Source of the DNA: Bacteroidota bacterium
GTDB lineage: Bacteria; Bacteroidota; Bacteroidia; Flavobacteriales_D; Sanyastnellaceae
NCBI GenBank assembly: GCA_027619225.1
Contig: JAQCFW010000003.1
Location: 86,834-130,856 of the forward strand
Length of the DNA: 44,023 nt
Direction of reading: 5' to 3'
A program made the translations under genes and the position numbers. The notes under the pieces are model-generated. The model worked only from the letters and a program-made list of their open reading frames with translations, had not been told where the DNA came from and did no database searches. Within the stretch, counting starts at the first letter, position 1. Each line of letters starts with the position of its first letter. Shown in pieces: positions 5,685 through 44,023 of this stretch.

Positions 5685-7859
5685 ATGAAGCAAATTCTAC
5701 TTTTTATTCTTGTTGCATATGCATTTTCTTCAAATACTGAGATGTATGCTCAGCCAAATTTAACGCATGTTAATAACGTTAATGCTGCGGGGAATGCAAC
5801 ATTGTACTGGGATGTGTTTTCTTCTGTTGGGGGTGAGGAGTTTGTTCGGAATGAAATTCAGGTGTATGATATTCCTGGAGTGCTTCTTAGTCCGTCTCCA
5901 CATTTAGTGGGTCCAAATACAGAAACAGGTGTGTTGCCAACTGGATGGGTAATGCCATCATTTTTGTATAACGCAAATGCTGCAGCTCATTGTTTTACTG
6001 CTGTACAGATCACGTCGATGGATGGGGGGACTACAAATGACAATTCCCCGACTTCTCCTACATTATGCACTATTCATGTAAACGCGAGCGTTGGGGCGGG
6101 GGTGGATGAAGTTTATCTTGTTTGGAATAGTCCATATGCGGTGTCAGGCGAAAGTGCGGGGGGAGATTTTGAATTAGAAAGACTGAATGAATTCACTGCG
6201 GTTTGGGACAATATCGCAACAATTACCGACTCACAAACCGGAGGGTCATTTACAGACAACCCAGGCCCCTGCGTGTCAGTTAATATATACAGGGTAAGAC
6301 AAACTGCATCGAATGGGATTGATGTACACGTGAGCAACGCAACAGATTTAGTTGTGGGCAGTGTGAATGGAGAGTTGCCTATCACCACTCATGTCGATGT
6401 CGACCCAGCCACTGGATTAGCTGAAGTCTTCTTTGATTACACTGTTACACCTGAGACTCTTGGGTATATTATATATAAATGTTCTGGCGCTGGGTCTGCG
6501 GAGGTATTGCAACTAGACAACCCCAACGCCACTTCAGCTTTAATTCCTACTTCACTTGCTTCATCGCAACCAGAGAGTTACAGAGTTTCTGCTTTTGAAT
6601 GCATTAATGATGATGGATCGCCCAATCCCAATGCTGCAGGAGCTTGTACAACTTCAATATTTACGGTTGCATCTCAGTTACCTTGTACCTATAGCGCTCA
6701 AATAAGCTGGAATACTCCATTTGGGATAGAGGGTGGAGTGGACCACTATTCCGTGCAGGTAAGTATGTATGATGAAGCGTTATCTAATTACGGCCCTTGG
6801 ATCACTCTTGATGATGTAGGGCCTGGTTTCAGCACTTACCTCCACGAAGGCGACAACACTGAAAGTACAAATAAGTATAGAGTCTTGGCTGAATCAACAA
6901 CTGGCAATGTCGCTCGCTCAAGTGAATTTGAACTTAACTTTTCATATCCCGAATCGGCAAATGCTCCTGTTGTAAAGAGAGCGTCAGTTTTACCTGACGG
7001 CAGTGTAGAGATTTTTATTGAAACGGACCCTACAGCTGTTGAGGCAAGTTTATATCAACTTGAAAAGCTCGTTGAAGAAGATGGTGTTTGGCTACCTGTT
7101 TTTGAACCAGAACCAAGTTCCCTTGGGTTTCCAATCACTTTTGTGGACTCAAATGTTAATACCGATTCTAAGAGTTATACTTATAGGTGCTCTGCGTACA
7201 ATGTTTGTGAAGCAGCAACGTCTACCTCTAATATCGCATCAACTATTCTACTAAAAGGTTGGCAGAGTATGGGTGAAGCTGATTTTGAGAATAGTTTAAT
7301 TTGGTCTGAGTACGTAGAGTTTCCAGAGGGAGTTAGCTCTTACGAATTGTTAAGAGCCCCGACACGACTGTCCGCAAACAGCCCGCTAACCACTTTTTCA
7401 TCCGATGAGTTTCACTCTGAAGACTACGTGGGAGATTTAACCCATTTACCTGGTGATTTTTGCTACACCATTATCGCAATCGACAATGATATGACTGACG
7501 GGCTGAATGGAGCGAGCTCAAATAGGGTTTGCTTAACTGAAGATCCGCTGTTGTGGATACCAGGTGCATTTACTCCGAACGGAGACCTTATTAACGATTG
7601 GTTTCCTTGGAATCCAGGTGAATCATCGCTCGGTTTTGTTTCTGCAGTTTCTGCTGAAAACGAAAGCATTTACAAACTCACTATTTTGTCGAGATGGGGT
7701 GATGTTATTTTTGAGTCTGAAAACCCTGACGAATGTTGGGATGGGATAAATGAAAACGAGATGGTCCCAGATGGTTTTTATGCAGTTATTGCTCAAGTTT
7801 TAGACGGATCCGGCAAATGGCACATGATCTCTAAAAGTGTGCAAGTTCTTCGGCCTTAA
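5685..7859 (+). CDS. Secreted T9SS type B (gliding motility-associated C-terminal domain) protein
   Basis: 724 residues. Residues 1-23 are a Sec signal peptide ending MYAQ. The middle (about 25-610) looks like several beta-sandwich, fibronectin III-like repeats, seen as recurring YxVxA, W-rich and YRV..xxxN patterns. The last about 105 residues start with WIPGAFTPNGDLINDWF and contain RWGDVIFES, CWDG and VPDGFYAVIAQVLDG. These are the hallmarks of the CHU_C / type B sorting domain that directs export through the type IX system and often attachment to the cell surface. The fibronectin-like reading of the middle is less certain than the C-terminal call. It stands alone, followed by the guaB promoter. 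Confidence 0.88.
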   Translation: MKQILLFILVAYAFSSNTEMYAQPNLTHVNNVNAAGNATLYWDVFSSVGGEEFVRNEIQVYDIPGVLLSPSPHLVGPNTETGVLPTGWVMPSFLYNANAAAHCFTAVQITSMDGGTTNDNSPTSPTLCTIHVNASVGAGVDEVYLVWNSPYAVSGESAGGDFELERLNEFTAVWDNIATITDSQTGGSFTDNPGPCVSVNIYRVRQTASNGIDVHVSNATDLVVGSVNGELPITTHVDVDPATGLAEVFFDYTVTPETLGYIIYKCSGAGSAEVLQLDNPNATSALIPTSLASSQPESYRVSAFECINDDGSPNPNAAGACTTSIFTVASQLPCTYSAQISWNTPFGIEGGVDHYSVQVSMYDEALSNYGPWITLDDVGPGFSTYLHEGDNTESTNKYRVLAESTTGNVARSSEFELNFSYPESANAPVVKRASVLPDGSVEIFIETDPTAVEASLYQLEKLVEEDGVWLPVFEPEPSSLGFPITFVDSNVNTDSKSYTYRCSAYNVCEAATSTSNIASTILLKGWQSMGEADFENSLIWSEYVEFPEGVSSYELLRAPTRLSANSPLTTFSSDEFHSEDYVGDLTHLPGDFCYTIIAIDNDMTDGLNGASSNRVCLTEDPLLWIPGAFTPNGDLINDWFPWNPGESSLGFVSAVSAENESIYKLTILSRWGDVIFESENPDECWDGINENEMVPDGFYAVIAQVLDGSGKWHMISKSVQVLRP

Positions 7860-19379: not shown

Positions 19380-19832
19380 ATGTCAAGCGACGAAATATTT
19401 ATACAAGCAAAAGATATTTTCGAGGTGTACCTCGAACAAAATGGGCACCGAAAAACGCCTGAGCGCTTTGCCATACTTGAAGAAATTTATACTTTACAAG
19501 GTCATTTCGCTGTTGAAACTCTATACGATAAAATGCAAAATGGGGAGTGTCGTGTTTCTAGAGCCACCCTTTACAACACGATGGAGCTTCTTCTTGATTG
19601 CAACTTGGTGCGAAAGCATCAGTTTGGAGAGAAAATTGCACAGTATGAGAAGTGTCACAGAGTAAGACAACACGACCACGTGATTATTGCAGATACAGGC
19701 GAGGTTATTGAGTTTTGCGACCCGAGAATTCAACAAATTAAAGCGACTTTAGAAGAGCACTTCGGAATTGAAGTGCTCCATCACTCTTTGAATATTTATG
19801 CGCGCAAGCGAAAAACAAAAACTGAAGCATGA
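19380..19832 (+). CDS. Fur-family transcriptional regulator lacking the CxxC zinc motif
   Basis: 150 residues. The winged-helix N-domain shows GHRKTPERFAILEEIY and RVSRATLYNTMELLLDCNLV, the Fur DNA-recognition helix. The dimerisation domain keeps QHDHVII, GEVIEFCDPRI and HHSLNIYARK. Where Escherichia coli Fur has CLDCG after the HDH motif, this protein has IADTG, so both structural-zinc cysteines are missing, and there is no C-terminal Cys pair. Metal sensed and targets are unknown. The stop overlaps the purA start by four bases (ATGA), implying translational coupling. I recall the same gene order and the same Cys loss in other Bacteroidota, so this is probably a lineage form of Fur. Confidence 0.9.
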   Translation: MSSDEIFIQAKDIFEVYLEQNGHRKTPERFAILEEIYTLQGHFAVETLYDKMQNGECRVSRATLYNTMELLLDCNLVRKHQFGEKIAQYEKCHRVRQHDHVIIADTGEVIEFCDPRIQQIKATLEEHFGIEVLHHSLNIYARKRKTKTEA

Positions 19833-21121
19833 AAGCGGATGTACTCTTAGGCCTCCAGTGGGGCGATGAAGGAAAAGGTAAGATAGTAGATGTTCTGACA
19901 CCAAAATACGGAGTGATTGCTCGATTTCAAGGAGGACCTAATGCAGGACACACCATAATTTTTGACGGTAAAAAGCACGTTCTGCATACGATTCCTAGTG
20001 GGATTTTTCGTGATGATATATTAAACGTAGTCGGAAATGGTGTCGTGGTAGATCCTGTTATTTTTAAAAAGGAAATCGAAGGATTGCTTGAGAGCGGAGT
20101 GAGTCCATTCGATTCTCTCGTAATTTCTCGCAAAGCTCATTTAATTATGCCTACTCACGGACTTTTAGATGCTGCATCTGAAATGGCCAAAGGCAAGTTA
20201 AAGATCGGCTCCACATTAAAGGGAATTGGTCCTGCTTACATGGATAAAACGGGGCGCAACGGGTTGAGAATTGGAGATATTGAAAGTGCACATTTCTTAG
20301 AACGGTATGCCTTATTGCGGGATAAACACGTTCATATGCTCGTGCAATTTAAAGATTACAAATACGACTTATCGAAAGCGGAATCTGATTGGCTAGAAGC
20401 AATTGAATATCTTAAGAAATTTAAGTTTATAGATAGCGAACACATCCTTAATAAGGAGCTTAAAGAAGGGCGAGGGATTCTTGCAGAAGGTGCTCAAGGA
20501 ACGATGCTTGATATAGATTTCGGAACCTATCCATTTGTAACTTCATCAAACACAATTACAGCAGGAGCTTGTACCGGACTGGGAATACCTCCTAATAAAA
20601 TAGGAGAAGTATTCGGAATTTTCAAGGCGTATTGCACGAGGGTTGGTTCAGGTCCATTTCCTACTGAACTTCTTGAAGAAACAGGTGAAAAACTAAGAGC
20701 TGCAGGGTTTGAATTCGGAGCAACTACTGGCAGACCTCGACGGTGTGGATGGCTAGATCTACCTCAGCTGAAGTATGCTGTTATGGTCAATGGCGTGACA
20801 CAGTTATGCATGATGAAGGCAGACGTTCTTGGAGAGTTTGATGAGATTGAGGTATGTACTCACTACATGCATAAGGGCGAAAAAATCGACTATCTCCCAT
20901 ATGACATTAGGCCAGATGAAGTACAGCCCATCTACAAGACAATTGAGTGTTGGCCTGGAGATCTGACTAGATTGCGTGATGTAGCAGATATTCCAGCTTC
21001 GCTTAACGCTTACATTAAGATGATAGAAGATGAAACTGGTGTACCTATCTCAATCTTAAGTGTAGGTCCTGATAGAGAGCAGACGTTAATTTTGAAAAGC
21101 GATTTAAGAAACGATACCTAA
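19829..21121 (+). CDS. purA: Adenylosuccinate synthetase
   Basis: 430 residues, typical length. It joins IMP and aspartate using GTP to give adenylosuccinate, the first step from IMP to AMP. The P-loop region GLQWGDEGKGKIVD, the IMP loop GPNAGHTI, KGIGPAYMDK, GAQGTMLDIDFGTYPFVTSS, TTGRPRRCGWLD and the C-terminal SVGPDREQTL are all present. The start ATG overlaps the Fur-family stop by four bases. A 60-base gap separates it from the sulfate-activation genes. Confidence 0.97.
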   Translation: MKADVLLGLQWGDEGKGKIVDVLTPKYGVIARFQGGPNAGHTIIFDGKKHVLHTIPSGIFRDDILNVVGNGVVVDPVIFKKEIEGLLESGVSPFDSLVISRKAHLIMPTHGLLDAASEMAKGKLKIGSTLKGIGPAYMDKTGRNGLRIGDIESAHFLERYALLRDKHVHMLVQFKDYKYDLSKAESDWLEAIEYLKKFKFIDSEHILNKELKEGRGILAEGAQGTMLDIDFGTYPFVTSSNTITAGACTGLGIPPNKIGEVFGIFKAYCTRVGSGPFPTELLEETGEKLRAAGFEFGATTGRPRRCGWLDLPQLKYAVMVNGVTQLCMMKADVLGEFDEIEVCTHYMHKGEKIDYLPYDIRPDEVQPIYKTIECWPGDLTRLRDVADIPASLNAYIKMIEDETGVPISILSVGPDREQTLILKSDLRNDT

Positions 21122-21181: not shown

Positions 21182-21982
21182 ATGATTTATTGGTTTACTG
21201 GTCAGCCCGGTCATGGTAAAACAACTTTAGCAAAGGCTTTAATCGCGCAACTTAAAAGAGGAGGGTACAAACCATATCACATTGATGGTGATGACCTTAG
21301 AAGTCTCACCACAAATAATGATTACTCTCGTGTTGGACGTGAAGCAAATATTCGAAAAGCTCAAAACATTGCTCATTATCTTCACACGCAAGGGGAGATC
21401 GTAGTCGTTTCACTTGTTTCACCATATCGCGAACTGAGGGAAGGACTAAAAGCAACAACGAAAGTCTGTGAAATTTTTGTTCACACTGAAGAAATTCGAG
21501 GTAGAGAAGATAGACACGTAGAAGATTTTGAAATACCGATCTCTAATTTCATAGATATTGATACCACCGACTTGTGCTTAGAGGATAGTATTTCTAAAAT
21601 TCTTAACACATCACCAGTACCTTCTAAAGAGCTAAAAACTTTAGATAAAAGAAAAACTTTAGCCGTTGATTTTGACGGAGTTATACACAGATATAGCAAA
21701 GGTTTTCAGGGATTAGAGAATGCATATGACCCACCTATGGAAGGAGCAATAGAAGTCCTTCAAAGATTCAAGGACAAAGGCTATGTTCTTAAAATAATGA
21801 GTTCTAGACCTGCATTGGTTATTGAGGAATGGCTCGAAAAGTATGAAATGTCTGGGTTGTTCGATGCGGTAAGTAACAGCAAGTTTGCAGCGACTGTTTA
21901 TCTTGACGATAGAGGGTTCCATTTCACGAACTGGGAATCAGTTGAAGAAGAATTGGCCGCCCATCCCAAATTTACTCAATAA
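21182..21982 (+). CDS. cysC: APS-kinase-like protein fused to a HAD phosphatase domain
   Basis: 266 residues from the ATG at 21182. Residues 1 to about 150 are an adenylylsulfate-kinase-like P-loop domain: Walker A GQPGHGKTT (7-15), DGDDLRSL, NIRKAQNIAHYL and VSLVSPYRELREG. The usual lid segment (in Escherichia coli CysC a GLYKKAR...FTGI stretch) is missing and replaced by a shorter REDRHVEDFEIPISNF. Residues about 158-266 form a compact HAD domain with all four motifs: D163/D165 (DFDGVIH), S207 (SSRP), K234 and D242-D243 (YLDDRG). The domain order resembles phage T4 polynucleotide kinase-phosphatase. Position before DUF2061, cysD and cysN supports a role in sulfate activation. APS as kinase substrate is likely but not certain; the phosphatase substrate is unknown. 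Confidence 0.85.
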   Translation: MIYWFTGQPGHGKTTLAKALIAQLKRGGYKPYHIDGDDLRSLTTNNDYSRVGREANIRKAQNIAHYLHTQGEIVVVSLVSPYRELREGLKATTKVCEIFVHTEEIRGREDRHVEDFEIPISNFIDIDTTDLCLEDSISKILNTSPVPSKELKTLDKRKTLAVDFDGVIHRYSKGFQGLENAYDPPMEGAIEVLQRFKDKGYVLKIMSSRPALVIEEWLEKYEMSGLFDAVSNSKFAATVYLDDRGFHFTNWESVEEELAAHPKFTQ

Positions 21983-21995
21983 TTATTTAATTTTA

Positions 21996-22217
21996 ATGGA
22001 CAATCAGATTTCTAAATTAAGGCACATTGCTAAAACCATAACTTGGAGAATTATCGCATCCTTAACAACGTTTGCCTTAGCCTATCTATTCTTTGGTGAT
22101 ATTACTAAGGCTACAGGATTGATGGCGGTAGAAGTTGTTCTTAAAATGGCGCTTTATTATTTTCACGAAAGAGTGTGGTTTAATTACAGCAAGCTTGGCA
22201 GAAAGAAAAAACATTAA
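21996..22217 (+). CDS. DUF2061 small membrane protein
   Basis: 73 residues. It opens with a basic stretch (KLRHIAKTITWRIIAS) and has a hydrophobic segment (LTTFALAYLFFG) followed by a second one (GLMAVEVVLKMALYYF). It then has HERVWFNY and a Lys/Arg-rich tail. TITWRIIAS and FHERVW are family hallmarks of DUF2061. Members often sit beside cysD/cysN or cysC genes, but no biochemical role is known to me. The start lies 13 bases after the kinase-phosphatase stop, and the stop overlaps the cysD ATG by one base (TAATG). Confidence 0.85.
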   Translation: MDNQISKLRHIAKTITWRIIASLTTFALAYLFFGDITKATGLMAVEVVLKMALYYFHERVWFNYSKLGRKKKH

Positions 22218-23125
22218 TGACTGAATTATACAATCTCGACCACCTTACTGAACTCGAGGCAGAATCTATTTTTGTAATAAGAGAAGTCGCGGCTCAGTTT
22301 GACAGGCCTGCGATTCTTTTTAGTGGCGGAAAAGACAGCATTGTAGTAACACACATAGCTAAGAAAGCCTTTGCTCCGGCAAGGATACCTATGCCACTGG
22401 TTCACATCGACACAGGTCACAACTTCCTTGAAACAATAGCTTTTAGAGACAATCTTATACAGGATATGGGAGTTAACCTTATCGTAGGTAGTGTTCAGGA
22501 TACGATTAATCAGGGGAAGGTTCAAGAAGAGACAGGGAATAACGCTTCTAGGAATAAGCTTCAAACAACAACACTGATCGACACCATCGAAGAAAACAGG
22601 TTCGACGCCTGCGTAGGTGGAGCTCGCAGAGACGAGGAGAAATCTCGTGCGAAAGAACGGTTTTTCTCTCACAGAGATGATTTCAGCCAGTGGGATCCTA
22701 AAAACCAAAGACCAGAGCTTTGGAATTTATTTAATGGAATGCATGCTCCGGGTGAGCATTTTAGAGTTTTCCCATTGAATAACTGGACAGAACTTGATGT
22801 TTGGAATTACATCCTGAAAGAGAAAATAGAACTTCCGAGTCTTTACTTCTCACACGAAAGAGAATGCATCAGACGTGAAGGCCAAATTCTTGCCATGTCT
22901 GAATTCCTCAATCTCAGAGAAGGTGAAAAGCCAGAAATGATACGCATTCGGTTCAGAACTCTTGGTGATTTGACGATCACTGGCGCATTTGAAAGTGAGG
23001 CGGACACTTTAGAGAAAATAATAGAAGAGGTTGCGGCAACACGAATTACAGAGAGAGGGGGAAGAATGGATGACAAGAGGAGTTCGAGTGCTATGGAGGA
23101 TAGAAAAAAAGACGGATACTTTTAG
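22217..23125 (+). CDS. cysD: Sulfate adenylyltransferase subunit 2
   Basis: 302 residues, the usual CysD length. This is the catalytic ATP pyrophosphatase-type subunit that makes APS from sulfate and ATP. PP-loop AILFSGGKDSIVV, HIDTGHNFLE, GGARRDEEKSRAKERFFSHR and NWTELDVWNYI are intact, and the C-terminus ends RKKDGYF as in the family. The ATG overlaps the DUF2061 stop by one base and cysN follows after 12 bases, so the two subunits should be made together. Confidence 0.97.
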   Translation: MTELYNLDHLTELEAESIFVIREVAAQFDRPAILFSGGKDSIVVTHIAKKAFAPARIPMPLVHIDTGHNFLETIAFRDNLIQDMGVNLIVGSVQDTINQGKVQEETGNNASRNKLQTTTLIDTIEENRFDACVGGARRDEEKSRAKERFFSHRDDFSQWDPKNQRPELWNLFNGMHAPGEHFRVFPLNNWTELDVWNYILKEKIELPSLYFSHERECIRREGQILAMSEFLNLREGEKPEMIRIRFRTLGDLTITGAFESEADTLEKIIEEVAATRITERGGRMDDKRSSSAMEDRKKDGYF

Positions 23126-23137
23126 AGAACAAGAACG

Positions 23138-24397
23138 ATGAGCGAAACAACAACTAACGGACTTCTCCGCTTTACAACAGCGGGGAGTGTGGATGATGGC
23201 AAGAGTACTCTTATTGGTCGTCTACTTTACGATTCTAAAAGTATTTTTGAAGACCAACTCGAAGCAATTAAAGAGGCTTCAACCCAAAAAGGAATTAATG
23301 GACCTGACCTAAGTCTTCTCACTGACGGACTCAGAGCTGAGCGTGAGCAAGGGATTACAATTGATGTAGCCTATAGATATTTTGCTACACCACGTAGAAA
23401 GTTCATTATCGCGGACACTCCTGGACATATTCAGTATACAAGAAATATGGTGACAGGAGCGTCAACCGCTGACCTTGCGATAATATTAATAGATGCCCGC
23501 CATGGGCTCCTAGAGCAAACGAACAGACATAGCTTTATTGCTTCATTACTAGGTCTAAGACATTTGGTGGTTTGTGTCAATAAAATGGACCTCGTAGATT
23601 TTGATGAGGCGAGATACAGAGAAATAGTCCAGGAATACAAGAGCTTTAGTTCACGCCTTGATATCACAGACATTACATTCATTCCTATAAGCGCTCTTTT
23701 AGGTGACAACGTAGTCGACAAGTCAAAAAACATGAGTTGGTATGGGGGCTCGACACTTCTTCACCATCTAGAAAATGTTCATGTTGGCTCAGACAGAAAC
23801 CTTCAAGACTGCCGCTTTCCAATTCAATATGTTGTCAGGCCTCAAACCGATGAGCATCGAGATTTCCGTGGATATGCGGGGCGAATCGCTTCAGGAGTAT
23901 TCAAACCTGGAGACAAAATCCTAGCTTTACCTAGTGGAAAAGAGTCAACCATTAAAGAAATTACCCTGGGGGACGAAAAGCTTGAAAAAGCCTTCCCTCC
24001 TCTTAGCGTCACAATGACTATTGAAGATGACATAGATATTTCACGGGGCGATATGCTTGTGAGGATGAACAATCAGCCTGATGTAGTCACGCTTTTAGAC
24101 GCAAAAATTTGTTGGCTGGGAGAAAAGCCTCTCAACACTTCTTCACGATTTATTCTTAGACACCTCACCAATGAAGTGCCGGCAAAAGTCACGGAAATCC
24201 TTTACTGTATTGACATTAACACCCTTCATAGAAATGAGGAAAATACGATGGTTTCTACAAATGATATCGCGAGAATTAAAATTAAAACAGCTTCACCAGT
24301 TTTAACTGACAGCTATCGCAAGAATCGTACGACTGGTGCGTTTATCTTAGTGGATCCCAGCACACATTTAACAGTAGCGGCCGGAGTCGTTGGATGA
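23138..24397 (+). CDS. cysN: Sulfate adenylyltransferase subunit 1 (GTPase)
   Basis: 419 residues. This is the elongation-factor-like GTPase that drives APS synthesis by CysD. G1 GSVDDGKSTLIGRLLYDSK, the switch II region DTPGHIQYTRNM and G4 NKMD are present, followed by EF-Tu-like beta-barrel domains 2 and 3. There is no C-terminal CysC fusion as in CysNC proteins, in keeping with the separate kinase-like gene upstream. The TGA stop overlaps the ATG of the OstA-like gene by four bases. Confidence 0.97.
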   Translation: MSETTTNGLLRFTTAGSVDDGKSTLIGRLLYDSKSIFEDQLEAIKEASTQKGINGPDLSLLTDGLRAEREQGITIDVAYRYFATPRRKFIIADTPGHIQYTRNMVTGASTADLAIILIDARHGLLEQTNRHSFIASLLGLRHLVVCVNKMDLVDFDEARYREIVQEYKSFSSRLDITDITFIPISALLGDNVVDKSKNMSWYGGSTLLHHLENVHVGSDRNLQDCRFPIQYVVRPQTDEHRDFRGYAGRIASGVFKPGDKILALPSGKESTIKEITLGDEKLEKAFPPLSVTMTIEDDIDISRGDMLVRMNNQPDVVTLLDAKICWLGEKPLNTSSRFILRHLTNEVPAKVTEILYCIDINTLHRNEENTMVSTNDIARIKIKTASPVLTDSYRKNRTTGAFILVDPSTHLTVAAGVVG

Positions 24398-36942: not shown

Positions 36943-39900
36943 ATGATTCGGTTTACCACATTTATTTTTGCCATTTTGCTTTTCGCAAGCACTGGTCTTG
37001 CTCAAGTCGGCTCTGGCACATTGAAAGGAAAAGTCAGTGATTTCGACACTGGGGAACCTTTACCCTTTGCTAGTGTCGTACTATTTCTCAACGGAAACCA
37101 GGTTGCTGGTACGAACACTAATTTCGATGGTGAATACACCATAAAGCCTATTTCTCCAGGTACCTATGAGGTGCTTTTAAGTTTCGTTGGGTACCAGCCG
37201 AAGAAAATCACAGGAGTTAAAATCAACGCTAACAAAATACATTTTGTAAACGCTGAAATCTCTGCAGGAGTTATGGTACAAGAAGCTGAGGTAGTTGAAT
37301 ATGCTGTACCTCTAATCGATAAAGATGGTGGTGCTTCAGGTGGTACTGTGAGTAGAGAAGATATTGATAAACTACCTGGTCGTTCCGCTACTTCAATAGC
37401 TACAACAGTTGCTGGGGCTAGTACTGCGGGAACTGGTGGTGGTATCTCAATCCGTGGAGCTCGTACTTCTTCTACTTGGATTTACATCGATGGAATTAAA
37501 GTTCGCGGATCATCTGCTCTTCCAAAATCTGCCATTGAAGAAGTGCAAGTTGTAACAGGAGGAATCCCTGCGAATATCGGAGACGCTACCGGTGGTGTTA
37601 TAAATATCTCACTTCGTTCTTCAAGCCGCAATTGGTTTGGTGGCGGTGAGGTTATCACATCAGGCGTTCCAATAGGGGAAACCGCTATTGGTTTAGATAA
37701 ATTTGGTTACAACCTCGCTGAGGGAGTTGCTTCTGGTCCTATTCTTTTCCGAAAGGATGAGAACGGTGAAAAGACAGATCCGCTATTAGGTCTATTTTTA
37801 GCTGGTAACATCACATATCAAAAGGATCCACGTCCAACATTCGGCGGAGTTTACAGAATTACAGATGCAGCTCGTGACTCACTTATCGCTAATCCTTTAA
37901 GACAGAATGTTAGCGCTTCAGGAGTAATAAATGGAGCTCTTTATAATGCTGACTTCTTGTCCGGAGATGATTTCACGAAAGTTGACACTCGAATGAATGT
38001 CGGAACAACAAGTGCGAATATCGTAGCTAAATTTGACATTAACACAAATGAAACAACTACATTAACATTTGGAGGAACTGCTTCAGGAGGGCGCAGTAAC
38101 AACTTTAGTTACTCTGGATCTTTAATGAATTGGGATAACAATGCTCTCACTACTAGCTACGATTGGAGAGCATATGCTAAGTTCAGCCAACGTTTCGTTA
38201 ATGAGCAAGGTGAAAACGCAAGCAACCGAAGTAATGTTTTCTACCAGATAATGGTTGATTACAGCCAAAGCTATTATAATTCACAGGATGCAAACCACCG
38301 TGACGACTTCTTTAAATATGGTCACGTAGGGACGTTTAATGTGTACAATAGAAATTCTTACGATTATAATCCAATAACAGGTAGATTCGTTCACAACGGT
38401 TGGGAAGACACTCTAGTAACATTCGAAGCTTCTCAATTCAATCCGGAACTTTCTGCTATAAATAATCAATATTTCTCGCTTTTTGAACAAAAGCCTTATA
38501 ACCGATTTGAAGACGGGCCTTACGAAAGTCTTTTAGAAGTTCAAAATGGAAATGCTTTGCTAAATGGTCAAAGTCCGTCATCTACCTATGGCTTATATAG
38601 CTATTTAGGTACTCAAAGTGATTCATACTACACATCTAACAATACTCAATTCCGTGTAAGCGCTGCTGGTTCTGCTGACATTGGCGACCACGCTCTTCAG
38701 ATGGGATTTGAGTACGAGCAACGTAAAGATGCTTTTTTCTCTCTAGCACCAACAGGACTTTGGACACTTGGTCGCTTACTTACTAACTCGCATATCAAGG
38801 AGTTAAATGTTAATGATTCTACGATCACTAACATAGGAACCGAATACTACGTTACTTATGGAAGGTTGATTGGTGACAATCAATTTCTATTCGATAGAAA
38901 CCTCAGACGCGCTTTAGAACTTAATCCATTTGGCAACGACCTAATCAATATTGACGGGATTGATCCTGACTTCTTCACACTAGATATGTTTGGAGCAGAC
39001 GACCTACTTAATCAGGGAAGTAACCTAGTAAATTACTCTGGGTATGATCCATACGGTAATAAACTTTCTGGAAGACCGACAATTGAAGACTTCTTTAATG
39101 ACACAAATGAAGAAGGATTCAATACAAGGCCTATCGGAGCCTATGAACCTATATATATATCTGGATATATTATGGATAAGTTCACCTTCGATGATATCAT
39201 CTTTAATTTAGGTGTACGTATTGATCGATTTGACGCTAACCAAAAAGTGCTAAAAGATCCTTATGTAATATCAGATGCCTATACTCTCGGTGATGTAACA
39301 AGTGAATTAATTGACCTTGAAATTGATGGAGAAGTCATTATCCCATCAAACATCGGAGACGATTTCATTGTGTATGTTGATGATTTAGATAACCCTAATG
39401 CTATTGTTGGTTACCGTGATGGAGACACTTGGTACAATTCAGTAGGAACTGAAATTACTGACCCAGATATTCTCGCGGTAAATGAGCCATATCCTGCACC
39501 TTGGTTAGTTGAGGGTCCTGATGCAGAGTTAAATGGAAGTGCCTTTAAAGATTTCGTTCCTGCGGTAAACATTATGCCACGGATTTCATTCTCATTTAAC
39601 ATCTCAGACGAGGCTGTTTTCTTTGCTCATTATGATGTGCTAACACAGCGACCTACTTCAAATAACCGCTTTTCACCTATTGATTACTTATTTATTGAAA
39701 GTAGGAACTCTCTGATTTCAAATCCAGATTTGAAGCCAGAAAAAACGATTGATTACGAATTGGGTTTCCAGCAAGTACTTTCAAAGACTTCTAGTCTTAA
39801 AATTTCTGCTTACTATAAGGAAATGCGTGATATGATCCAGGTGAGGAATTTCACTGGAGCTTACCCGCGTCCATATAGAGCATTCGGCAATCTTGACTTC

Positions 39901-40632
39901 GGTACAGTGAAAGGTTTCACGATGGGATATGATATGCGTCGTACTGGCAATGTTAGAATTAATGCCAACTATACTTTGCAATTTGCTGATGGTACTGGAT
40001 CATCAACAGAGACTGCACTCGCTCTCATTAATGCTGGACTTCCAAATCTTAGATCTATAAGTCCACTTACTTATGACCAACGTCATAGATTTGTTGCAAA
40101 CGTAGACTACAGATATGGTGCTGGTGAAAGCTATGATGGTCCTGTTGCTAATTTCGGAGGAAAAGAAAGACAACTATTCGCTGAAATGGGATTCAATCTA
40201 ATTGCGAACTTGGGGTCTGGTACACCTTATACAGCGTCAACAATTGCAACTCCTATAACTGGTGAAATAAGCCCCTCAACTGAAGGTTCTATTAACGGTT
40301 CTCGCCTTCCATGGCAGTTCAATATGGACATGAACATTGACAAGAACTTTACGTTGAACTTTGGAGGAGAAGGAGAAGCTGCAAAATCCGTTAACCTGAA
40401 TGTTTATTTGTGGATAGGGAACGTATTAAACTCTCAAAACATTAATTCTGTTTACAGGTTCACTGGTGTGAGTAATGACGATGGATATCTAGCAGCGGCT
40501 CAATACCAACCTTTAATTGAGAGCCAAACGAACCCAGATTCTTTTAGAAACTACTACCAGATGTATACAAACAACCCTTTTAACTTAGGTGTTCCGCGTA
40601 CTCTACGTTTAGGTGTGAAATTTGACTTTTAA
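36943..40632 (+). CDS. TonB-dependent receptor with carboxypeptidase-regulatory-like N-domain
   Basis: 1229 residues. Signal peptide 1-20 (FAILLFASTGLAQ). Residues about 25-110 are a carboxypeptidase-regulatory-like beta-sandwich (GTLKGKVSDFDTGEPLPFAS ... FDGEYTIKPISPGTYEVLLSFVGY). The plug domain (about 125-235) has GRSATSIATTVAG, ISIRGARTSSTWIYIDGI and VQVVTGGIPANIGDATGGVI. The remainder is the outer-membrane beta-barrel, ending LRLGVKFDF. Substrate is unknown. No SusD-type lipoprotein follows. Instead the next gene encodes a huge exported protein and starts at or near its stop, so the two probably act as a pair. Confidence 0.93.
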   Translation: MIRFTTFIFAILLFASTGLAQVGSGTLKGKVSDFDTGEPLPFASVVLFLNGNQVAGTNTNFDGEYTIKPISPGTYEVLLSFVGYQPKKITGVKINANKIHFVNAEISAGVMVQEAEVVEYAVPLIDKDGGASGGTVSREDIDKLPGRSATSIATTVAGASTAGTGGGISIRGARTSSTWIYIDGIKVRGSSALPKSAIEEVQVVTGGIPANIGDATGGVINISLRSSSRNWFGGGEVITSGVPIGETAIGLDKFGYNLAEGVASGPILFRKDENGEKTDPLLGLFLAGNITYQKDPRPTFGGVYRITDAARDSLIANPLRQNVSASGVINGALYNADFLSGDDFTKVDTRMNVGTTSANIVAKFDINTNETTTLTFGGTASGGRSNNFSYSGSLMNWDNNALTTSYDWRAYAKFSQRFVNEQGENASNRSNVFYQIMVDYSQSYYNSQDANHRDDFFKYGHVGTFNVYNRNSYDYNPITGRFVHNGWEDTLVTFEASQFNPELSAINNQYFSLFEQKPYNRFEDGPYESLLEVQNGNALLNGQSPSSTYGLYSYLGTQSDSYYTSNNTQFRVSAAGSADIGDHALQMGFEYEQRKDAFFSLAPTGLWTLGRLLTNSHIKELNVNDSTITNIGTEYYVTYGRLIGDNQFLFDRNLRRALELNPFGNDLINIDGIDPDFFTLDMFGADDLLNQGSNLVNYSGYDPYGNKLSGRPTIEDFFNDTNEEGFNTRPIGAYEPIYISGYIMDKFTFDDIIFNLGVRIDRFDANQKVLKDPYVISDAYTLGDVTSELIDLEIDGEVIIPSNIGDDFIVYVDDLDNPNAIVGYRDGDTWYNSVGTEITDPDILAVNEPYPAPWLVEGPDAELNGSAFKDFVPAVNIMPRISFSFNISDEAVFFAHYDVLTQRPTSNNRFSPIDYLFIESRNSLISNPDLKPEKTIDYELGFQQVLSKTSSLKISAYYKEMRDMIQVRNFTGAYPRPYRAFGNLDFGTVKGFTMGYDMRRTGNVRINANYTLQFADGTGSSTETALALINAGLPNLRSISPLTYDQRHRFVANVDYRYGAGESYDGPVANFGGKERQLFAEMGFNLIANLGSGTPYTASTIATPITGEISPSTEGSINGSRLPWQFNMDMNIDKNFTLNFGGEGEAAKSVNLNVYLWIGNVLNSQNINSVYRFTGVSNDDGYLAAAQYQPLIESQTNPDSFRNYYQMYTNNPFNLGVPRTLRLGVKFDF

Positions 40633-40652
40633 TGTTGCATAGTAAGAAAATT

Positions 40653-43600
40653 ATGAAACGTATTCTTTCCATATTCGCTGTTGTACTAATAGCACAACCA
40701 TTATTTGCATATAAATATGTAGGGAATGGTGGCCCAGGAGCTACAGACAACTCTAACAATAACGGTTCTGTTGTGCAACCACAATTGCGTTCAGCTGCGT
40801 GTGCTCCAGCTACAGCTCTCAGAAACATTGAGTGGAACAACGTAAGGGCGCTGATTGAAACCGGCGGATCACTTTGGCAAGATCGTGCAACTTCTTCAGC
40901 TTCTTATGAAGTTCCTAAAGGTGGGGGTGTGAGTTCTTTATATGCTGGAGCTCTTTGGATGGGTGGAATTTCACCAGATCAACAATTAAAATTAGCTGCC
41001 CTTACATTTCGTAACAGAGGTAATGACTACTGGACAGGGCCTTTAACGATAGATGGATCTGCAGAAATTGATGCTTCAACTTGCCAACAATATGACAACT
41101 TCTTCGTTTCCACTAGATCTGATGCTCAACTTCATAGATCGTACTTTGATGCATTACAAACTGGAACTGCTGATGAAGAATTCCCTGATGGATACGCAAT
41201 TCCTTCTTATTTCTTCGATTATCCAGCTCACGGAAATACAGCTCTTAATCAAGATTTCTATCTTGCTCCTTTCAAGGATTATGATGGGAATGGATTCTAT
41301 GATCCTTCACAAGGTGATTATCCTTGGTATGATTTTATATCTGAGATAGATTGTGGAAGACGTTTAAGGGAAGATATCGTACCTCTTTATGGAGACCGTA
41401 ATTTCTATTGGATCTTTAACGATAAAGGAAATGTTCACTCTGAATCACAAGGTGAACCTATAGGTATGGAGATTCGCTCTCAAACATTCCAGTTTTCAAC
41501 GAATGACGAGGTGAACAATATGACATTCCATAATTATGTTCTTATTAACCAAGGCACACAGACTTTAGGGGATACATACTTTGGAGTTTGGGTTGATGCA
41601 GATGTGGGAACTGCTACTGACGATTACGTGGGTTGTGATGTACAAAGAGGTCTTGGATACGCTTATAATGGTGACGCTTACGATGAGACTTCATCTAGTT
41701 CTGCTGGTTACCTTGAAAACCCGCCTGCTGTTGGGATCGATTTCTTTGAAGGTCCATATCAGGATGCCGATGAAATTGACAACCCACTCACTACGAACTT
41801 CTCTGACGCTGTTGATTCATTAGGGATTCCTTACGCAGGAATTGGTATTGGATATGGTGATGGGGTGATCGATAATGAACGATTCGGAATGCGCCGCTTT
41901 GTGTACTACAACAACAGCGGGAGTAATTTAAATGGAGAACCTTCAACCCCTCTTCATTACTACAACTACATGAATGGTATTTGGCTTAATGGCCAAACAA
42001 TGTCACCAGGTGGTGATGGAACAACTCAATCAGAAATCCAAGCTCACTATATGTTCCCTGGAGATACTGATCCTTATAACTGGGGTACTCAAGGTATTGA
42101 TATCGAAGATTGGTCGGAGGTAGGTGAAGGCAACCCTCCAGCTGACCGAAGGTTTATTCAATCTGCTGGACCTTTTACCCTAGAACCAGGTGATTATAAT
42201 AACATTACGATGGGTGTTGTTTGGGCTAGAGGAACGAATGGAGACCCATTACAAAGTGTAAGCTTGATGAGACAAGCTGATGATAAAGCACAGGCTTTAT
42301 TTGACAACTGTTTTGAAATTGTGAGCGGCCCTGACGCGCCTGATGTTGCAATCCAAGAATTAGAGAATGAGTTGATTCTTTACCTTACTAATGAAAACTC
42401 CCTTTCAAACAACTTCCACGAAGAATATGTACAATTCGATCCCGGTATTCCGAAATTAAATATTGATGGAGAAGAGTATGATAGTCTTACACGATCATAC
42501 ACATTCCAAGGATACCAAATCTATCAACTTTCAGACAACACTGTTTCTGCAGCAGATCTTGCCAATGTGGAAATGGCAAGATTAATTTACCAATGTGATG
42601 TTGCCGATGAAATCGATGTTATCTTTAACTATGAGGAGGATGAAATTATCCCTGTTGCTGTACCTAACTTAATGGTTAACGGAGAAAACGAAGGGATTTC
42701 TCACAGCTTTAGAGTGACTACAGATGTTTTTGCACAAGGTGACAATAAGCTGGTCAACTACCGCACTTACTACTTTATGGCTCTTGCATACGGATATAAT
42801 ATGTACGCGCCATATGACTCGGGAACCGGTACCGGCCAAGACATACCCTACAAAGCTTCACGTAAAGGAGCTATAGGTTCTATCCGTGTTTACTCAGGCA
42901 CCCCTCACCTCCCTTCACCTGAATCAGGTGGTACGATCCAAAACTCTTCTTACGGAGACGGTGTGATAGTGACTCGTTTAGAGGGTAAGGGAAATGGTGA
43001 TAACATTATCGAGCTTTCTTCAGACAGTGAGACGGCTATATTAGAGAGTCCTAACGGTAGAGTATCTCAGCTTACTTACACAGGCGATGGCTCTCCGGTA
43101 AACATACGAGTTGTAGATCCACTCCGTGTTCCTGATGCTAATTTCGAGTTACAAGTTAATTCTAGTGATTCAGATCTTGAGGATGCTGATGAGTCGTACT
43201 GGATTTTAACGAACCGTACTCTTTTAGATGCTACAGGAGATTCTACAAAAGCGATCCGCAACTCTACGAAAGCTTTAAACATCCTCAACGAGGAACTGTT
43301 ACTTGATTGGGGTTTGAGTATTACTCTTCACCAGTATCAGTATCCAAATGGAGGTTCTTTCTCGGATCCATTAGAGTCTTCTATTACTTTTGACAACCCA
43401 TCTGCTCCTTGGCTGCAAGGTGTTCCTGATAAAGAAGGATTTGACCTTCTAAACTGGATACGTGCTGGAACTCAGGAGGGTGATGATGAATTAGAGGAAG
43501 AGATTGTATTTAACGACATCAAAGCTGGTAATCCGCTTGATGAGGATGAGAAATATGAGGGTATACTTGGAGGCACATGGGCTCCTTATTGTCTTGTGAG

Positions 43601-44023
43601 TTTCACCGATGATGTTACTCTTGTAACAGGAGAGACTATTCAGATTCCGAATATAGCCCCTACAGTGAAAGGACTTGAGGGTGATCTAAGTCCATTCTCA
43701 GGAATTAATGGCTTGAATAACGTGGATGTCGTGTTTACGAGTGACAAGCTTCTTTGGACGCGTTGTCCTGTACTTGAGATGCAGCCCGTAGAGGCATTGG
43801 CCCAAAAGGCTTACGATGGAGATGATCCTGAGAAAATGCGCCTGCGACGTCACCCATCGGTGGACAAGAGGGGCCGAAAACCTAGTGATGTAGGATACAA
43901 CGCTTCGGAGGCTAACCCTAACGGCGCTCAGCCTGTAGGAATGAGTTGGTTCCCGGGATATGCAATCGATGTGGGTACTGGAGAGCGTCTAAACATGGCC
44001 TTCGGAGAAGACTCATGGTTGGG
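40653..44023 (+). CDS. Very large exported protein, truncated by the window end
   Basis: At least 1123 residues, open at the right edge with no stop. The ATG at 40653 gives a signal peptide KRILSIFAVVLIAQPLFA. An in-frame ATG at 40632 overlaps the TonB receptor stop (TAATG) and would add seven residues. The mature start has YVGNGGPGA and then SLYAGALWMGGISPDQQLKL. Recurrent features are many Gly, Asp and aromatic residues, DYDGNGFYDPSQGDYP and GDGVIDNERFGMRRF. These fit a calcium-rich beta-sandwich surface protein. In this lineage such proteins commonly end in a T9SS sorting domain, but the C-terminus is outside the window. No enzyme motif recognised. Confidence 0.85.
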   Translation, partial: MKRILSIFAVVLIAQPLFAYKYVGNGGPGATDNSNNNGSVVQPQLRSAACAPATALRNIEWNNVRALIETGGSLWQDRATSSASYEVPKGGGVSSLYAGALWMGGISPDQQLKLAALTFRNRGNDYWTGPLTIDGSAEIDASTCQQYDNFFVSTRSDAQLHRSYFDALQTGTADEEFPDGYAIPSYFFDYPAHGNTALNQDFYLAPFKDYDGNGFYDPSQGDYPWYDFISEIDCGRRLREDIVPLYGDRNFYWIFNDKGNVHSESQGEPIGMEIRSQTFQFSTNDEVNNMTFHNYVLINQGTQTLGDTYFGVWVDADVGTATDDYVGCDVQRGLGYAYNGDAYDETSSSSAGYLENPPAVGIDFFEGPYQDADEIDNPLTTNFSDAVDSLGIPYAGIGIGYGDGVIDNERFGMRRFVYYNNSGSNLNGEPSTPLHYYNYMNGIWLNGQTMSPGGDGTTQSEIQAHYMFPGDTDPYNWGTQGIDIEDWSEVGEGNPPADRRFIQSAGPFTLEPGDYNNITMGVVWARGTNGDPLQSVSLMRQADDKAQALFDNCFEIVSGPDAPDVAIQELENELILYLTNENSLSNNFHEEYVQFDPGIPKLNIDGEEYDSLTRSYTFQGYQIYQLSDNTVSAADLANVEMARLIYQCDVADEIDVIFNYEEDEIIPVAVPNLMVNGENEGISHSFRVTTDVFAQGDNKLVNYRTYYFMALAYGYNMYAPYDSGTGTGQDIPYKASRKGAIGSIRVYSGTPHLPSPESGGTIQNSSYGDGVIVTRLEGKGNGDNIIELSSDSETAILESPNGRVSQLTYTGDGSPVNIRVVDPLRVPDANFELQVNSSDSDLEDADESYWILTNRTLLDATGDSTKAIRNSTKALNILNEELLLDWGLSITLHQYQYPNGGSFSDPLESSITFDNPSAPWLQGVPDKEGFDLLNWIRAGTQEGDDELEEEIVFNDIKAGNPLDEDEKYEGILGGTWAPYCLVSFTDDVTLVTGETIQIPNIAPTVKGLEGDLSPFSGINGLNNVDVVFTSDKLLWTRCPVLEMQPVEALAQKAYDGDDPEKMRLRRHPSVDKRGRKPSDVGYNASEANPNGAQPVGMSWFPGYAIDVGTGERLNMAFGEDSWL

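Follow-up and report, generated by a model that had tools for sequence, protein, structure and literature searches.

We analyzed a 44,023-nucleotide stretch of flavobacterial DNA (the window) and found in it a protein that joins a lid-less APS-kinase-like domain to a complete HAD phosphatase domain. This is a real and conserved domain fusion in a known pathway, and our searches of the open-access literature did not turn up any account of an APS kinase joined to a HAD domain. We place the probability at roughly 0.5 that the protein is a bifunctional sulfate-activation enzyme, an APS kinase combined with a HAD-type PAP 3′-phosphatase. According to this reading, CysD-CysN would make APS, the N-terminal lid-less APS kinase would phosphorylate its 3′-OH to give PAPS, sulfotransferases would consume PAPS and leave PAP, and the C-terminal HAD domain would remove the 3′-phosphate (PAP → AMP + Pi) in the place of CysQ. 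The gene itself would have arisen when a phage CysC-HAD gene gave its HAD domain to a resident kinase. We infer both catalytic activities and the substrate PAP; for the PAP phosphatase activity of the HAD domain the odds are even. The features concerned are as follows.

19829-21121, + strand: purA, upstream neighbor, kept across the genus
21182-21982, + strand: kinase-HAD fusion gene, 266 aa, ATG start
21182-21613, + strand: lid-less APS-kinase-like domain, residues 1-144 (PF01583, 4.3e-22); landmarks Walker A 7-15, DGD 35-37, R40, Y48, R53, and N56
21614-21655, + strand: interdomain linker, residues 145-158 (99% mean identity in the genus)
21656-21979, + strand: capless HAD phosphatase domain, residues 159-266 (assigned from its motifs and its nesting among phage HADs); catalytic residues D163, D165, S207, R209, K234, D242, and D243
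21996-22217, + strand: DUF2061 small protein, 73 aa from ATG (PF09834, 9.7e-18)
22217-23125, + strand: cysD, sulfate adenylyltransferase small subunit (TIGR02039, 413 bits, cut-off 396.6)
23138-24397, + strand: cysN, sulfate adenylyltransferase large subunit (TIGR02034, 560 bits, cut-off 336.1)

We counted in favor of this reading the cysD-cysN gene order, the position of the fusion as the sole APS kinase, the invariance and low dN/dS of the HAD domain, the APS-pocket residues, the tie between this HAD and APS kinases, its occurrence on two kinase backbones, the phage sulfotransferases, the absence of CysQ, and a CysQ fragment in the genome G177. Counted against it were the missing lid, a CysQ-like paralogue, a DHH protein, five unfused genomes that also lack CysQ, the incompleteness of the MAGs, an ambivalent CysH, and a HAD model without a PAP-specific structural match.

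Translation of 21182-21982 on the + strand confirmed that one 266-residue chain carries both domains, as the sequence-only reading had claimed, with Walker A at residues 7-15 (GQPGHGKTT) and D163, D165, S207, K234, D242, and D243 where that reading had put them. The addition of R209 completes an S-x-R motif II, and the domain has the HAD fold with motifs I-IV (DxD, S/T, K, DD) of HAD superfamily phosphatases. Pfam matched APS_kinase at residues 2-103 (4.3e-22) and HAD_2 at residues 167-231 (4.1e-6). The kinase half scored 79.2 against PF01583 (cut-off 21.1) and 82.6 bits against TIGR00455 (apsK, NCBIfam; cut-off 138.7). The APS_kinase match spans only positions 4-110 of the 152 in the model, as the protein lacks the lid found at the C-terminus of ordinary APS kinases. 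The gene order is relA, fur, purA, kinase-HAD, DUF2061, cysD, cysN, and an lptA/ostA-like gene, past which a serine hydroxymethyltransferase gene lies on the opposite strand.

A full-length match to the fusion was present in 13 of the 14 genomes of the genus, including that of the window (2.03 Mb, 97% complete); the 12 other proteins were 73-93% identical to the window protein, and every one of the 13 was 266 aa long. Most of the compared genomes are incomplete MAGs. An assembly artefact or chance joining of genes is ruled out by the recurrence of the fusion at the same length in 13 genomes. The genus is marine flavobacterial. Among 114 genomes of the family, no match outside the genus (E 1e-8) extended past residue 161. 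The kinase half was found without HAD, at 44-68% identity, in 33 genomes of four sister genera (one of them, G164, matched at residues 22-68 only), and a weaker match was found in five further family genomes. When each of the 13 genomes was searched with PF01583, no APS kinase other than the fusion came up, except for two matches below 20 bits.

The homologue search with listing of neighbors that the sequence-only reading had suggested gave the fusion in 13 genomes, in a cysD-cysN context. We annotated 40 loci (12 fused, G177, 18 unfused short kinases, and 9 weaker ordinary CysC). The fused loci have purA on one side and DUF2061-cysD-cysN on the other up to the contig ends, and the cysD-cysN gene order holds in the window and in 12/12 other fused loci as far as the contigs extend. 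Across the fused and short-kinase loci, the kinase occurs with DUF2061, cysD, and cysN wherever the contig reaches (the L083 contig ends at the kinase), in several gene orders. Two of the nine ordinary-CysC loci are without cysD, namely L097, which is cut near the kinase, and L101, which is uncut. In G177, the 14th genome of the genus and a 61% complete MAG, the match to the fusion is a mere 15 residues: approximately the first 14 kinase codons are joined directly to the end of cysN (L078, about 5990-6120), a deletion that takes out the entire kinase-HAD, DUF2061, cysD, and cysN block. The flanking genes are 89-94% identical to those of the window, which indicates that the block was lost recently.

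When contigs were scanned with the fused alignment, 12 MAGs showed the fusion, with matches identical to those of the genus, so that we rejected a widespread bacterial fusion within the reach of the two short patterns on which the scan relied and which distant fusions may escape; its other loci comprised 17 with the kinase alone and 10 short P-loop matches. None of 50,697 named-phage records reached 80% coverage of the fusion protein and 20 matched part of it, and 2 of 72,556 plasmid records matched the HAD domain (Leptospira, 35%).

In regards to the kinase half, alignment with ordinary CysC showed that the stretch around KGLYKKARxGEIxxFTGI is missing. The lid motifs (KGLY and a later FTG) occurred in 0/62 short kinases, and the lid motif occurred in 15/15 of the phage CysC-HAD fusions listed. 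In M. tuberculosis CysC, as described in PMC4373884, Arg559 of the lid stacks on the ATP adenine, Lys562 acts at the γ-phosphate and transition state, and Phe576 stacks on the APS adenine; the base is Asp480, and APS is bound by Arg483, Phe492, and Arg497. D37, R40, Y48, and R53 of the fusion align to these last four residues. As the three lid residues of that account, the catalytic Lys and those that stack on ATP (Arg) and on APS (Phe), are missing from the fusion, APS kinase activity is not assured. R40, Y48, R53, N56, P81, and R106 were retained in 62/62 aligned short kinases (31 bacterial and 31 viral rows, the viral ones among the matches listed, not dereplicated), as were K13 and D37; the bacterial rows were chosen by a P-loop plus DGDD pattern, so that those letters are partly selected and the former six residues are not. 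Two bacterial short kinases that fall outside the 62 by this pattern, L003 and L040, both retain R40, Y48, R53, and N56, the last of which we take to be the Asn of the APS-side active site. Walker A, the base Asp, two Arg, the aromatic residue, and the Asn are therefore present and the lid is not, so that the short kinases have kept the APS side and lost the lid. R106, R108, or H112 are candidates to take over the role of the lid. The lid-less APS kinases (L139-L155, L175, L177-L204, L206, and L207) form their own family on a long branch, and this family is common to Flavobacteriales MAGs and phages.

Since the lid motifs are found in none of the 62 sequences, the TIGR00455 score is 82.6 against a required 138.7, and the branch to the short kinases is long (2.7), the lid-less kinase may no longer be an APS kinase and may instead use another acceptor or play a structural role, with the HAD domain acting on that product. 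We regard this as unlikely, because the pocket residues R40, Y48, R53, and N56 are kept in 62/62, the genus has no other clear APS kinase, cysD and cysN accompany the gene wherever the contig reaches, and sulfotransferases occur in 18/31 of the phage loci listed.

CysQ is the usual PAP phosphatase. One copy of PF00459 was found in 12/14 genomes of the genus and more in most sister genomes. The extra copy of the sisters is a genuine CysQ (TIGR01331, 257-269 bits in the four scanned; cut-off 228.8), and the shared copy is a CysQ-like paralogue (156-174 bits in the six scanned, three of them from fused genomes). A CysQ query at a threshold of at least 60% identity matched 28/33 unfused short-kinase genomes and 0/13 fused genomes, as counted from match rows, with G152 counted on a partial match. 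The unfused short-kinase genomes without a genuine CysQ were G086, G137, G150, G153, and G166. G177 is the only member of the genus with part of a CysQ, an end of 63 residues that lies at the edge of a contig; the frame next to it reads like a GDP-mannose dehydratase. The gain of the fusion and the loss of CysQ are one event on one branch, and therefore give no statistical evidence of association. A DHH match was present in 12/13 fused genomes, 8/13 being NrnA-sized (347-376 aa) as judged by size only, and either the CysQ-like paralogue or the NrnA-sized DHH protein could clear PAP. The fusion protein matched neither PF00459 nor TIGR01331 (E 0.001) and so lies outside the CysQ family by sequence. 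The first proposal of the sequence-only reading, that the HAD part works on something made in the pathway itself, such as PAP or PAPS, is favored by context, that is, by the two kinase backbones, the cysD-cysN cluster, and the genuine CysQ that was not found; its choice of substrate is one that we infer.

The use of PAPS depends in part on CysH. The CysH of the window genome (L328:3307-4032, G000:C32) scored 244.5 against TIGR02055 (APS reductase; cut-off 235.3), and it also passed PRK02090 (260.8, cut-off 154) and TIGR00434 (170, cut-off 165.1), both of which are phosphoadenylyl-sulfate reductase models. It has the CC and CxxC cysteines, which are the [4Fe-4S] ligands of APS-reducing enzymes. 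Since it exceeds the cut-offs of both classes, the use of PAPS is not settled: if CysH reduces APS, the kinase serves sulfation, and if it reduces PAPS, reduction makes PAP too. PF13469 matches were found in 11/14 genomes of the genus and were mostly weak. A 136-aa frame upstream of CysH reads, by eye, like an Rrf2-type regulator.

The score of CysH over the APS reductase cut-off, although it is matched by scores over two PAPS reductase models, would suit an arrangement in which the HAD domain converts PAPS to APS and thereby sets the split of APS between sulfation and APS reductase. Regulation by a kinase and a phosphatase that oppose each other within a single chain is known, as in PFK-2/FBPase-2. 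Such a futile cycle would cost ATP, however, and the same HAD lies beside phage APS kinases, 7/23 of those listed with sulfotransferases, where PAP is waste. We consider this arrangement decidedly unlikely.

D163, D165, S207, R209, K234, D242, and D243 were invariant in 13/13 fused proteins, and the same seven residues were invariant in 21 aligned bacterial and phage HADs; conservation of the HAD motifs, on which the sequence-only reading had staked its case, was thus observed. Within the genus, the HAD domain (residues 159-266) averaged 89% pairwise identity, compared with 71% in the kinase and 99% in the linker (145-158). The median NG86 dN/dS was 0.038 for the HAD domain (24/78 pairs usable), 0.103 for the kinase (19/78), and 0.000 for the linker (32/78). 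These values indicate that purifying selection is stronger on the HAD part than on the kinase, and together with the conservation in 13 species they exclude a chance fusion. Part of the linker, KE(L/V)xxLDK(R/K), also occurs in several phage CysC-HAD proteins.

We scanned IMG/VR, accepting its labels as given, with the fused alignment (best 80 of 468 relatives) and with HADs alone (best 80 of 555). The matches listed in the former scan included full-length kinase-HAD proteins, standalone short kinases (47-59%), and standalone HADs. In the HAD scan, the first 22 of the best 80 (47-66% identity) all had an APS kinase, fused in one ORF in 15 and encoded in separate ORFs within approximately 2 kb in 7, and the next 58 had one in only two loci, L285 and L268 (a 111-aa frame); we placed the cut after row 22 once the pattern was seen, and the kinase profile was partly built from viral loci. 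Clustering of the best 80 at 90% identity gave 14/14 versus 2/49 with an APS kinase. No APS kinase was found with the L267 HAD (48% identity), the locus of which is cut close downstream. Among the matches listed, 4/8 separate phage kinases fit the strict lid pattern. L166, on the same contig as L246, encodes a 390-aa protein in which DUF2061, an APS kinase, and a HAD domain are joined in that order; its PF01583 match is complete (235 bits).

These data also bear on the idea of a chance joining, in which the HAD domain would be a broad housekeeping phosphatase that was retained because it stabilizes or dimerizes the protein. Small capless HADs are often promiscuous, and the genus-wide fusion amounts to one event. 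Against this, the catalytic residues are invariant, the dN/dS of the HAD domain is below that of the kinase, and the tie to APS kinases is specific to one clade (22/22 versus 2/58 among the best 80 of 555), so that we allow this idea only a small chance.

In a 40-row HAD tree, the genus (9 of its 13 rows used) formed one clade (99/98), which was united with six phage CysC-HAD rows in a starred clade (98/90) and with five more in another (98/91), the branching inside being partly open. The other members of the latter clade are phage HADs fused to lid-bearing APS kinases. The group of all CysC-linked HADs was weakly supported (84/13), and the outgroup was long-branched and did not fall on one side of a branch. 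The kinase tree had 60 rows, 8 of them from the genus. These lay with the short kinases of bacteria, grouping in one clade with g5 (95/94); the phage-fused kinases formed a clade (96/80) among the ordinary ones, and the phage short kinases formed a clade of their own (100/98); the branch to the short clade had the length of 2.7 given above. As the HAD domain is nested in phage fusions and the kinase belongs to the lid-less clade of bacteria, the histories of the two halves differ. The trees suggest that the kinase half was inherited vertically and that this resident kinase gained a phage-type HAD domain, the direction from phage to bacterium being read from the HAD nesting. One HAD clade thus appears on two APS kinase backbones. 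Acquisition of the whole fused gene from a phage was rejected because the kinase half is vertical in the tree. A HAD source in other Bacteroidota was rejected because 1 of 395 genomes of the phylum matched (E 1e-6), and that one was the window's own. A sample of 100 genomes of the order gave two weak matches to the HAD half (G073, 1.7e-6; G088, 1.6e-4).

We examined the neighbors of the phage kinases in flanks set at 5 kb around the short kinases and at 6 kb around almost all other loci, with loci not dereplicated. An HxGH nucleotidyltransferase of approximately 133 aa was found in 30/31 short-kinase loci (best 80 of 468) and, in the HAD scan (best 80 of 555), in 15/15 fused and 6/8 separate loci versus 1/57 other HAD loci, giving 51/54 of the phage APS kinase loci listed (e.g., L175:5437-5844 and L166:6664-7113). 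It matched Pfam CTP_transf_like, and its nearest NCBIfam models were NMN adenylyltransferases, far below their cut-offs. Bacteria have CysD-CysN in its place, and from this position we would guess that it is a candidate small ATP sulfurylase. DUF2061 was present in 26/31 phage short-kinase loci (best 80 of 468) and in 19/22 phage loci with HAD and kinase (best 80 of 555). In bacteria as in phages, DUF2061 adjoins APS kinases, and in some cases the two are fused (L166, L208, and L209). Sulfotransferases, sought with profiles iterated from L175 and L166 proteins (PF13469, 1.8e-16; PF03567, 1.8e-24), were found among the matches listed in 25/54 loci (18/31 short-kinase, 4/15 fused, and 3/8 separate) and in 3/57 HAD loci outside the APS-kinase group (best 80 of 555). 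Genes for a WbsX/RgpF glycosyltransferase, a nucleotide-sugar epimerase, and a WecB-like protein lie at phage APS kinase loci (L209:5761-7689, L171:3773-4723, and L171:6268-7251); such glycan genes suggest sulfated glycans.

A broader scenario can be put forward tentatively, as possible rather than probable. Phages would carry a cassette for sulfation, in which the nucleotidyltransferase would substitute for ATP sulfurylase and be accompanied by an APS kinase (lid-bearing or lid-less), DUF2061, and a HAD PAP phosphatase of a new kind, often together with sulfotransferases and glycan genes; the genus would have captured the HAD from it and could then lose CysQ.

An AlphaFold2 model of the full fusion had a pLDDT of 88.4 and a pTM of 0.57. 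In the comparison with CysC and T4 Pnkp that the sequence-only reading had called for, a Foldseek search of the PDB ranked APS kinases, alone or in bifunctional chains, at positions 1-29 and T4 Pnkp at position 30. A nucleic-acid end-healing enzyme like T4 Pnkp, the other suggestion of that reading, shares the domain order and the S-x-R motif II found in T4 Pnkp, aligns over both domains (2ia5), and is echoed by a weak PHROG polynucleotide kinase match (PHROG_505, 5.1e-7, both domains), but it lacks support and is highly improbable in view of the 29 APS kinases ahead of it, the 82.6 bits of the kinase half to apsK, the cysD-cysN sulfate-activation context, and the lack of a ligase among the window proteins scanned. 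The HAD-only model (pLDDT 85.5) had a single Foldseek match below 0.001, namely 2obb (BT_0820, an uncharacterized Bacteroides protein; 25% identity, E 3.3e-5), and the 50 VIA-align matches listed, mostly general HAD folds, had Z of 9.8-11.8. No PAP- or nucleotide-specific structural match to this model was found.

The fusion shares with CysC (PF01583, TIGR00455; M. tuberculosis CysC, PMC4373884) the P-loop, the DGD base, the APS-side Arg, and the cysD-cysN context, and differs in having no lid, a HAD domain at the C-terminus, and a score under the TIGR00455 cut-off. CysNC, PAPS synthase, and Sat-CysC are likewise APS kinases fused to an enzyme of the same pathway; their partner is ATP sulfurylase, which acts before PAPS, whereas the phosphatase here would act after PAPS use. 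T4 Pnkp has the same order of an N-terminal P-loop kinase and a C-terminal HAD phosphatase, but this is a resemblance only, as the present kinase is APS-kinase-like and lies in a sulfate-activation operon. The pAp phosphatases named in the accessible part of PMC8268124 are CysQ (FIG superfamily), NrnA (DHH Nrn proteins), and Cv1693 (amidohydrolase), with no HAD protein among them; the reaction proposed here, PAP → AMP + Pi, would be the same, and the fusion differs by its HAD fold and joined kinase. Phage cysC is known, 62 having been reported from freshwater phages (PMC10914622); these too are phage APS kinases, and the accessible part of that report mentions no HAD fusion and no nucleotidyltransferase or DUF2061 partner. 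In the open-access literature, we found nothing on a HAD PAP phosphatase, the function of DUF2061, or a phage PAPS cassette, nor an earlier biochemical description of the fusion, which the sequence-only reading had named as a ground for withdrawing its claim.

If the preferred reading, an APS kinase joined to a PAP phosphatase, is correct, the HAD superfamily would join CysQ, DHH, and amidohydrolase proteins among the named PAP phosphatases, one chain would both make the sulfate donor and remove the inhibitory by-product of that donor, and the gene would show concretely how a metabolic enzyme of a host can acquire an enzyme domain from a phage. The analysis also points to a family of lid-less APS kinases with a catalysis to be explained, and to a set of phage genes, so far little read, that comprises a kinase, a small nucleotidyltransferase, DUF2061, a HAD, and a sulfotransferase and may sulfate phage or host glycans.

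Elsewhere in the window, 36943-40632 encodes a protein that is TonB-receptor-like by eye, followed by a 1130-aa frame at 40632-44021 that runs past the right end of the window.
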